Shown here: piece by piece, positions 15,302-18,983 of the stretch
Position numbering within the stretch: position 1 is the stretch's first letter
Layout: each line of letters begins with the position of its first letter
Source: a virus
Reading direction: 5' to 3' (one strand)
DNA length: 36,801 bases
IMG/VR virus record: IMGVR_UViG_3300030329_003531
Location: 1 to 36,801 of that record
Notes under the pieces: generated by a model
Told to the model about the DNA's origin: nothing
Databases searched by the model: none
What the model saw: only the letters and a program-made list of their open reading frames with translations
Made by a program: the position numbers and the translations under genes

Positions 15302-16057
15302 CTATTTTATACATATCCATGCAGTAAAATTATTCCACTTCCAAAAAATTTCACTATGCTTGAACCCTGCATTCTTAAATAATAAATTATTTTGTTCAAT
15401 AGTTAAAGGTACTAAAACACCTTCAAGTGATGCTTTTTTCCTGTCTATTTCTTCAGTACTATATCCGTTATCTTCTTTCATTGATAAATATTGTTCCACC
15501 ATTGATTGATTAGTTTCGGGAGTTGACCCAAGTACTTTTTCCACTATTATGAAAGCCCCGCCTTCTTGCAACATTTGGTAAACACATCTTAATAAATTTT
15601 GTCTATGCTCCATAGGAACAAACATTAAAGTTAATATAGAAGTTATTAAATTAATTTTTTTTGGATTAAATTTAGATTTGTCTAATGCTATTGGTCCTGC
15701 ATATAAATCATGTAAACAACCATTATTGAATCTTAAATCCCAATTATAAACATGAATATTGTTTTTGGTATTAGGAATCAATAATAATTCTTCTAACATA
15801 GGGTCACTTATTTCAGTTGCTATAAAATCATTGTTGGTACCTAAGTGCATTAGTGATTTAATAGCTTCACCACGAGAACTGCCTAAATCAATTATTACTT
15901 CATCATTTCCTATATAATTTTCCGCCCATTTCACTACAAGTTCCCTCATAACTCTATATTGCGGTATTGATCTATCAAGCATATTGTCAAACACTTTGGT
16001 TACTTCAGCATCAAATTCCCATTTGTCTTTAGGCATGGTCTTATCTAACTTTTCCAT
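15302..16057 (-). CDS. CmoA-like carboxy-SAM synthase, 251 aa
   Basis: CmoA converts SAM and prephenate into carboxy-SAM. Similarity to E. coli CmoA (from memory) is clear along the whole length: FDAEVTKVFDNMLDRSIPQY near the start, SAM motif IIDLGSSRGEA (55-65), EGGAFIIVEK (165-174), NGYSTEEIDRKKASLEGV (197-214) and the end GFKHSEIFWKWNNFTAWICIK split as in CmoA. Length 251 against 247. The E. coli Arg199, which holds the carboxylate, aligns with Lys208. No CmoB (the tRNA partner) is present. It follows a cytosine methyltransferase by 22 bases with its own AAAGG ribosome site, suggesting that its product feeds that enzyme. An ordinary methyltransferase of this fold is the alternative. Confidence 0.85.
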   Translation of the reverse strand: MEKLDKTMPKDKWEFDAEVTKVFDNMLDRSIPQYRVMRELVVKWAENYIGNDEVIIDLGSSRGEAIKSLMHLGTNNDFIATEISDPMLEELLLIPNTKNNIHVYNWDLRFNNGCLHDLYAGPIALDKSKFNPKKINLITSILTLMFVPMEHRQNLLRCVYQMLQEGGAFIIVEKVLGSTPETNQSMVEQYLSMKEDNGYSTEEIDRKKASLEGVLVPLTIEQNNLLFKNAGFKHSEIFWKWNNFTAWICIK

Positions 16058-16079
16058 ATTAACAACCTTTAAAATAATT

Positions 16080-17135
16080 TTATAATTTATATAATATATC
16101 TTTTTTTATACTCAATGCAACTTCTTTCATCATTAGAGGTGGTACTGCTCTTCCGATTCTTTCCCATTGTTTTGTAAAACTGCCTGTCAGTTTAAAATCT
16201 GTTGGGAAACTTGATATTGCTTTGATTTCGGGAATTGTTAATGTTCTAGGATATTTGTGATGATAATGACTTGGTTTAGTAGTAAGTGTGTTGCAAGATT
16301 TATTAGGAAATACAATTCTATGCGAAAAATATCTATCTTTACCATAATATTTTTTTGATATTGCCGCTAAGCTTGAATTATTTTCTTTAACTGCTCTTGC
16401 CCATAACATTTTTGCAAAATTATGTACTTCGTGATGTTCACCTTGTATTTCATCTTCGTAAGCATCAGCAACTATTCTTTTATAATTTTTAGGTTTAGGA
16501 AAAGCAGGGTCAATATTTAAATCATTTCTTGTAGCTACAAAAATCAATCTTTCCCGCATAGTAGGAACACCTAGTCTATCGGCTTTTAATATTTTAGCTT
16601 TAACATTATATCCAATATTTTTAAATTCTTGTAATATTAATTTGAAATATCCTTTGGCTTTACCTGTAACAAGACCTTTAACATTTTCGCCTATTATAAC
16701 TTTAGGTTGTAACCCTTCAGCTATCCTTAAAAATTCAAAAAACAAATCATCAACATATTGTTTGGTATCTGAATAACTACGAATTTCATTCCACCCTTTT
16801 TGTCTTTGTCCACTCATAGAAAATGAAGCACATGGTGGGGAACCATCAAGTATATCTATATCACCTACATCAAGATTTGTTTCTTGTAATATATTTTCGG
16901 GGGCAAGTGTTCTGATATCTTCTTTATTTAAAATAGTATTTTTGTGATTAAGTTTGTATACTTCTCTTGCCGCTTCTACAAATTCATTTGCCCATATAAC
17001 ATTCAATCCTGCCATTTTGTAACCAAGAGAAGAACCACCACAACCACTAAAAGTAGAAACAACTTTAAATTCTTTTTTAACTTCGTTTATTTCCCCCATA
17101 GAAGGAATTACATATGGTGGGTTAATTAGCTCCAT
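16080..17135 (-). CDS. C5-cytosine DNA methyltransferase with motif X Asn-to-Arg change, 351 aa
   Basis: All catalytic motifs are present: motif I FSGCGGSSLGYKMAG (29-43), motif IV GSPPCASFS with catalytic Cys102, motif VI ENVKG with Glu150, motif VIII RERLIFVATR (194-203), target-recognition region about 204-295, and motif IX RTLTIPEIKAISSFP (297-311). Motif X reads ERIGRAVPP, where the usual sequence is IGNAVPP, so Arg329 replaces the conserved Asn near the SAM pocket. The codon AGA is at 16151-16149. With a CmoA-like gene next in the operon, I infer that it transfers a carboxymethyl group from Cx-SAM to cytosine. Plain 5-methylcytosine formation is the alternative. Overlaps the ParB-like gene by 10 bases. 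Confidence 0.93.
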   Translation of the reverse strand: MELINPPYVIPSMGEINEVKKEFKVVSTFSGCGGSSLGYKMAGLNVIWANEFVEAAREVYKLNHKNTILNKEDIRTLAPENILQETNLDVGDIDILDGSPPCASFSMSGQRQKGWNEIRSYSDTKQYVDDLFFEFLRIAEGLQPKVIIGENVKGLVTGKAKGYFKLILQEFKNIGYNVKAKILKADRLGVPTMRERLIFVATRNDLNIDPAFPKPKNYKRIVADAYEDEIQGEHHEVHNFAKMLWARAVKENNSSLAAISKKYYGKDRYFSHRIVFPNKSCNTLTTKPSHYHHKYPRTLTIPEIKAISSFPTDFKLTGSFTKQWERIGRAVPPLMMKEVALSIKKDILYKL

Positions 17136-17635
17136 TCAAATTTACATTTAGGACATATATTTTTAGTTTCTATATGTTCATCATATTCATCAAAATCGTC
17201 AATGTCATTAGTGTCATCTATTATTTCAGTATTTTCACTTCTTGAAATGATGCTCAATAATTCTTTTATCGAATCATTTTCGACATTAGCATTATCCATT
17301 AATTCTAATAATTTACTGTCATCTTTGTGTGCCAATTCTGATAATGGGTCTAATGTCATTAATAATTTGTCAGCTTCTTCTTCGGTAACATCTAGTATCA
17401 ATACAGGTACTTTGTCTTGTGATTTTAATGTGTCTTGTCTTAAGTGTCCATCAATTAAAACTAATTCACCATTTTTTTCGTAAGCAATAAGTGCATTAGC
17501 AATTCCGATTTCATCTAATACCCCTTGCATAACTTCTTGTTGAAAAGGTGAATGTAACCGCCAATTTTTAGGATTAGCTTTTATTTCATTAGGATTAATT
17601 TGTCTTAATTCTTTGATTCGATTTTTTATTGCCAT
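17126..17635 (-). CDS. ParB/sulfiredoxin-domain protein with C-terminal zinc knuckle, 169 aa
   Basis: ParB-like N-terminal domain: INPNEIKANPKNWRLHS (13-29), VMQGVLDEIGIANALI (35-50), and the signature IDGHLRQDTLKS (61-72), then VPVLILDVTEEEADKL. The C-terminus ends CPKCKFEW (161-168), a half zinc knuckle after an acidic linker. Such proteins often accompany phage DNA methyltransferases and may guide or regulate them; some have nuclease activity. First gene of the modification operon. Its ATG coincides with the expected transcript start of an extended -10 promoter, and no Shine-Dalgarno site is visible. Confidence 0.85.
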   Translation of the reverse strand: MAIKNRIKELRQINPNEIKANPKNWRLHSPFQQEVMQGVLDEIGIANALIAYEKNGELVLIDGHLRQDTLKSQDKVPVLILDVTEEEADKLLMTLDPLSELAHKDDSKLLELMDNANVENDSIKELLSIISRSENTEIIDDTNDIDDFDEYDEHIETKNICPKCKFEWS

Positions 17636-18255: not shown

Positions 18256-18819
18256 CTAAATTCTATACATTTTTGGTCTTTTTGTAAAAAATTCAACATT
18301 TTTTAGATGTTTTAAAGGAACTTTATAGTCATCACCATGCCATTGTGGTGTCTGTTTATAGTTTTCCATATCACGAAATGATATATATCCTGCTATGTTT
18401 GCAGTAGTTATATCACTAAATTTAATCTTTTTTGTTTTTTGACATAAGCCATTAACAAAAATTTGAACACAATATTTAAAATTTTTAACTTTCGCTACTG
18501 TAAATTGGCTTTCAGAATACAATAAATTTAGATGTTTATAGCTATCAGCATAGGCACTTGTCTTTATTTCAATCTTATCATAGCCAATTTGGAAATCCAT
18601 ATCATCATATTGTCCTGCTTGAAATTCAAAATCATATTTAACATTATTAATTTCTAGAAACTGTTGAAACATTAACTCGCCAATCGAACCAATCAGAATC
18701 ATTTCTTTTCTCTTAGATTGGGAAAAGTTAAAGCGGTTATATTCGTATTTGAATCTTTTGTTTGAGTATATAACCGCTTGTTCTTTTATAGCTTCTGATA
18801 TGGTTAAACTTACTTCCAT
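18256..18819 (-). CDS. PD-(D/E)XK nuclease-like protein, 187 aa
   Basis: Shows the core of the restriction-endonuclease fold: helix with GSIGELMFQQFL (Glu48), strand FEFQAGQYDDMDFQIG with Asp75, then IEIKT with Glu84 and Lys86. These would form the metal site. The rest includes a Tyr/Phe-rich region and a C-terminal basic tail. I choose ATG 18819 because it overlaps the previous stop, rather than an upstream TTG. It may degrade host DNA or act in recombination. The modification operon next to it could protect phage DNA from it. Confidence 0.7.
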   Translation of the reverse strand: MEVSLTISEAIKEQAVIYSNKRFKYEYNRFNFSQSKRKEMILIGSIGELMFQQFLEINNVKYDFEFQAGQYDDMDFQIGYDKIEIKTSAYADSYKHLNLLYSESQFTVAKVKNFKYCVQIFVNGLCQKTKKIKFSDITTANIAGYISFRDMENYKQTPQWHGDDYKVPLKHLKNVEFFTKRPKMYRI

Positions 18820-18983
18820 TGATCCCAACCGCCCCAATTAACTCCACCACTTCTAGTTTTACTGTAAAATTTTCTAACTTTTTTAAGTGAATCTTCAGCT
18901 ATGGCTCTTTTCTTGGCTTGGTCTTGTTCGTAATCGTTTTGGAAATCTTGTTGTAATTTTTTTAGGTTTAATTTCTTAGTCAT
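18810..18983 (-). CDS. Small charged protein, 57 aa
   Basis: Starts MTKKLNLKKLQQDFQNDYEQ, a charged helix, and ends with GGVNWGGWDQWK, a Gly/Trp-rich tail. The ATG at 18983 overlaps the end of the preceding gene by eight bases. A TTG six codons upstream is less likely. The function is unknown. It sits between a small early-type protein and the nuclease-like gene. Confidence 0.65.
   Translation of the reverse strand: MTKKLNLKKLQQDFQNDYEQDQAKKRAIAEDSLKKVRKFYSKTRSGGVNWGGWDQWK

Follow-up and report, generated by a model that had tools for sequence, protein, structure and literature searches.

The closest described system is that of Synechococcus phage S-B43, whose CmoX is a DNA cytosine C5-carboxymethyltransferase that makes 5-carboxymethylcytosine, with a phage CmoA supplying its cofactor, Cx-SAM, and CmoY ligating glycine to the product (Yang et al., Nat Commun 2025, PMC12783734). 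In the crystal structure of this enzyme with Cx-SAM (SpCmoX, 8YF3), the carboxylate is contacted by Arg350, which corresponds to Asn304 of M.HhaI; wild-type SpCmoX accepts Cx-SAM only, the R350N mutant is inactive with either cofactor, and the target motif is GC (PMC12783734). The same study draws on IMG/VR and other sets to list 5,615 candidates that carry both SPPC and Arg, and counts 4,257 CmoA, 2,251 ligases and 1,660 ParBc among their neighbours (PMC12783734). Cx-SAM use has also been engineered, in the N374K variant of the SAM enzyme M.MpeI, as that work is cited in PMC12783734.

The window analysed here, a 36.8-kb IMG/VR phage contig of 32% GC (positions 1-36801), carries by homology a complete set of such genes, for CmoA, CmoX, a ParB-like protein and a CmoY homologue, all on one strand (Table 1). 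The ParB-like gene shares 10 nt with the start of cmoX, cmoA follows cmoX after a gap of 22 nt, and the CmoY homologue lies ~2.2 kb upstream of cmoX. This kind of system was described in December 2025 in another phage, and the window enzyme is a further member of it; being from an IMG/VR record and passing both filters (SPPC and Arg), it is probably already within the published candidate set. The initial annotation had noted the Arg in motif X of a cytosine methyltransferase beside a CmoA-like gene and had read the pair as a sign of Cx-SAM use. That relation has been proven experimentally in the homologue SpCmoX (PMC12783734) and is predicted from sequence for the window enzyme, while the CmoY homologue and the prior publication both go beyond what had been noted.

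Table 1. Predicted DNA-modification genes of the window and the motif X codon.
Feature	Positions	Strand	Basis
cmoX-like gene, predicted DNA cytosine C5-carboxymethyltransferase, 351 aa	16080..17135	-	PF00145; 8YF3 match
Codon AGA, Arg329, motif X, predicted Cx-SAM carboxylate binder	16149..16151	-	aligned to SpCmoX Arg350
CmoA-like, predicted Cx-SAM synthase, 251 aa	15302..16057	-	TIGR00740; 4GEK
CmoY-like, predicted ATP-dependent (AMP-forming) amide ligase, 261 aa	19344..20129	-	PF00733 Asn_synthase; SpCmoY homology
ParB-like protein, 169 aa	17126..17635	-	PHROG 620 ParB-like E 8e-11; PHROG 498 E 6e-9

Motif X of the 351-aa open reading frame, which contains ...QWERIGRAVPPLMM..., reads ERIGRAVPP, with Arg329 situated in WERIGRAVPPLMM; its codon appears as TCT on the plus strand. 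Arg329 is no sequencing slip, because Arg stands at this position in 40 of 44 aligned sequences and the other four, which have Asn or Met, are controls, so that the residue first reported is borne out by both the reading frame and the alignment. PF00145 covers the full length of the protein (E 7e-59 in the Pfam profile search), and the residues of motif I (F29/G31/G33), E51 and D73, motif IV (SPPC102), motif VI (E150-N151-V152) and motif VIII (R194 and R196) are all retained. The earlier claim that all other catalytic motifs are intact therefore holds for the catalytic residues but needs one amendment at Thr192, the sole deviation, which replaces the motif VIII Gln found in 42 of 44 relatives. 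Similarly, the statement that C5-methyltransferases nearly always have Asn in motif X is too narrow, because a large group carries Met instead (GMSVPP), although Arg itself is indeed specific to the CmoA-associated group. With a C5-methyltransferase fold, the SPPC catalytic motif, Arg at the site of M.HhaI Asn304 and SpCmoX Arg350, and a phage CmoA in the neighbourhood, the window enzyme has the features by which CmoX is recognised.

Both sequence and predicted structure place SpCmoX (S-B43; A0A514ABG7) nearest to the window enzyme. In a phmmer search of the PDB, 8YF3 was the best match (E 5.5e-72; next 3.2e-25), with Arg329 aligned to Arg350. The AlphaFold2 model (pLDDT 92.3) again had 8YF3 as its best match by Foldseek (E 9e-32) and by VIA-align (Z 38.8 over 313 residues, 2.2 A rmsd; next Z 32.4). 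The two proteins are 43% identical in alignment A1 and 40% over the structural alignment, sharing the motif X Arg, SPPC, ENV, RxR and the fold, as well as a neighbouring CmoA and Asn-synthetase-like ligase. They differ in the target recognition region, which is divergent and not confidently alignable, and in gene arrangement, since in the window the ParB-like gene overlaps cmoX and the ligase is not adjacent to it. Pseudomonas phage PaBG (NC_022096) resembles the window in the order ParB-like, CmoX, CmoA with a ligase nearby; its CmoX is 42% identical by tblastn and 47% in alignment A1, and its CmoA 39%. PaBG is, however, a giant phage, and its ligase comes after CmoA, whereas that of the window comes before the ParB-like gene. 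M.MpeI N374K likewise has a basic residue in place of the motif X Asn and a known use of Cx-SAM, but it is engineered, CpG-specific and carries Lys, while the window enzyme is natural, carries Arg and belongs to another subfamily.

The adjoining CmoA-like gene, also pointed out initially, was recovered with TIGR00740 (CmoA) as the best curated model, at 138 bits against a cutoff of 193.3 that the proven S-B43 CmoA, at 116, does not reach either; E. coli CmoA (4GEK) matches the protein with E 5.5e-22. The CmoY homologue is a stand-alone Asn-synthetase-like protein that shares 38% identity with SpCmoY across 243 aa (E 8e-45) and in which the PP-loop (LSAGVDS), K98, E102, S132-K133 and R147 are conserved with the family; the nearest folds to its model (pLDDT 94) are the synthetase domains of beta-lactam and asparagine synthetase. 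Between the ParB-like and ligase genes lies a gene for a 193-aa protein (18256-18837, minus strand), which matched nothing in Pfam or PHROG and has, by eye, a PD-(D/E)XK-like stretch (DDMDFQIGYDKIEIKTSA).

The published survey was selected on Arg350 and so could not measure the association between this residue and CmoA. We collected loci with degenerate patterns that left out the motif X Arg, 80 of them viral and 80 cellular. Four isolate phages and the window completed the set, and neighbours were scored with profiles; IMG/VR was searched with an alignment query because the single-protein query P0001 gave no relatives there. The motif X position could be read in 164 loci, with Arg in 123, Asn in 12 and Met in 29. 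CmoA was present in the fetched flank of 119 of the 123 Arg loci and of none of the 41 Asn or Met loci (Fisher p 2e-34), a p-value that overstates the case because the loci are related and are treated as independent. When each 60% identity cluster was reduced to a single representative, there were 19 clusters with Arg and CmoA, 3 with Arg and no CmoA, and 20 with neither (p 3e-9, clusters treated as independent). A 44-row tree implies ~4 changes of Arg, just two of the contrasts lying on well-supported branches; in random pairings CmoA followed expectation in 1.4 contrasts on average and never went the opposite way, contrasts so few that a phylogeny-aware sign test is unable to reach significance.

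An Arg common away from CmoA, the outcome that the initial annotation had said would speak against its reading, was not what the survey found. At three of the Arg loci that lack CmoA (L090, L130 and L020) the sequence stops 35, 85 and 1481 nt past the gene, and at another, L129, the ligase is next door and a CmoA match lies elsewhere in the genome bin. The loci with Met and no CmoA in the flank are L133, L135-L136, L138-L140, L142-L163 and L165. Erwinia phage Y3 was briefly a candidate non-Arg case through a wrong regex match, but its true motif, WERLGRICVP, has the Arg; in its CmoX (L184:486-2615) SPP is separated from the catalytic Cys by an intein-like insert.

In Staphylococcus phages F1 and SPbeta-like (L192:5302-7820 and L194:4983-6682), CmoA adjoins an HhaI/MpeI-type C5-methyltransferase that has GSPCQ and a motif X Gly (DVVGGVINQ). 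The same Gly-type pairing occurs in similar viral contigs (L199-L201) and in L198, where the Gly-type and an Arg-type enzyme form a tandem. These Gly-type enzymes are a candidate second carboxymethyltransferase lineage, missed by the published filter on SPPC and Arg, and because of them Arg may not be the sole solution. Distant M.HhaI-like methyltransferases with GFPC in place of SPPC and Arg in motif X adjoin CmoA and a CmoY-like ligase (L215:4110-5165, L216:4946-6001 and L198:3098-3985), which suggests that the motif X Arg arose more than once. Among Verrucomicrobia MAGs (L102-L107, L110-L112, L116 and L118), several bins hold ~3 to 7 CmoX-like copies, and the fetched copies adjoin CmoA. In Aeromonas phage HJ05 (L196:2645-7420), a CmoA-like gene precedes a gene for DAHP synthase (PF00793) by ~2.9 kb, and the product of the latter might raise the supply of prephenate, the CmoA co-substrate.

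The window enzyme very probably adds carboxymethyl rather than methyl groups to cytosines of the phage's own DNA. What we propose beyond the observed sequence, gene order, homology to proven enzymes, fold and Arg-CmoA association concerns activity, cofactor choice, amine, target sequence and protective role. CmoA would make carboxy-SAM from SAM and prephenate; CmoX would flip a cytosine out of the phage DNA, Cys102 would attack C6 and the carboxymethyl group would be transferred to C5, with Arg329 holding the cofactor carboxylate and excluding SAM. The CmoY-like ligase would then activate the carboxyl with ATP and join it to an amine, with glycine or another amino acid the probable choice, and the resulting hypermodified cytosine would shield the phage genome from host restriction. 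We hold this joint reading, of a CmoX fed by CmoA, a product amidated by the CmoY-like ligase and a genome thereby protected, to be highly probable.

Were the Arg neutral, the enzyme would be an ordinary SAM-dependent C5-methyltransferase and the adjoining CmoA would serve tRNA modification. Its fold and catalytic motifs are as in ordinary C5-methyltransferases, but we consider this most improbable given how closely Arg tracks CmoA across the surveyed loci and given that the nearest relative has been proven to be a carboxymethyltransferase and does not accept SAM (PMC12783734); against the tRNA role, no CmoB was recognised among the proteins, from part of the window genes, that were run against Pfam. 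A decayed or dual-specificity CmoX, using both SAM and Cx-SAM, might be read from the motif VIII Thr192 and from the origin of M.MpeI N374K in a SAM enzyme (as cited in PMC12783734), yet it is very unlikely when the key catalytic residues are intact and wild-type SpCmoX is confined to Cx-SAM.

In a third alternative, 5-carboxymethylcytosine would itself be the final modification and would not be acted on by the product of the ligase-like gene. The distance of the window ligase from cmoX, and the 66 of 119 loci with Arg and CmoA that have no ligase in the fetched flank (many of these contigs being short), are in keeping with such an end product, which is nevertheless unlikely: the ligase is on the cmoX strand, is homologous to SpCmoY and retains the family's conserved residues. 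We favour a carboxymethylated and subsequently amidated cytosine.

The word content of the window suggests that this phage, besides modifying its DNA, avoids restriction sites to an extreme degree. CCAG/CTGG is absent from both strands against an expectation of 141, as are ACGT, CCGG, GCGC, CGCG, CATCC/GGATG, CCTGA/TCAGG, GGAGA/TCTCC, GAGGC/GCCTC and ACGCT/AGCGT, while GGCC and GATC are depleted. Compared with the GC motif of the S-B43 enzyme, the absence of the GC-containing words GCGC, CGCG, GAGGC and ACGCT, alongside a divergent target recognition region, gives no sign of a modification protecting every GC site. A CCDG-type modification-dependent site was considered as a link between the absent words and CmoX specificity and fails because CCTG occurs 157 times; word frequencies in the window did not pin down the motif that CmoX targets.

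Two relatives by terminase, L176 and L177 (77% and 70%), likewise lack CCGG, ACGT and GCGC, only part of the avoidance in the window being common to them. CmoX, CmoA and CmoY were not found in the fetched sequence of either, and in L176 such genes may lie further off, because just 1.4 kb is available upstream of its small terminase gene. That position is occupied by a Tet_JBP oxygenase fragment with a TET-associated glycosyltransferase in L176 (L176:2-1332) and by a ParB-N6/N4 methyltransferase fusion in L177 (L177:1737-3074). Where these relatives carry other DNA-modification genes, the window has ParB-CmoX-CmoA (15302-17635), which suggests that such genes are exchanged here.

Two secondary observations are new: that related phages carry other DNA-modification genes upstream of the small terminase gene, and that the window lacks several words resembling restriction sites. 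It is possible, though we put it forward tentatively, that this lineage makes a hypermodified cytosine other than 5-glycylcarboxymethylcytosine, at a different target motif and perhaps with a different amine, from a position at which DNA-modification modules are swapped under strong restriction pressure; three kinds of DNA-modification genes occur there in the lineage. With its divergent target recognition region, the window CmoX adds a member that is useful for finding new carboxymethylation motifs. More generally, a survey unselected for the residue supports one motif X amino acid as a mark of natural DNA carboxymethyltransferases.
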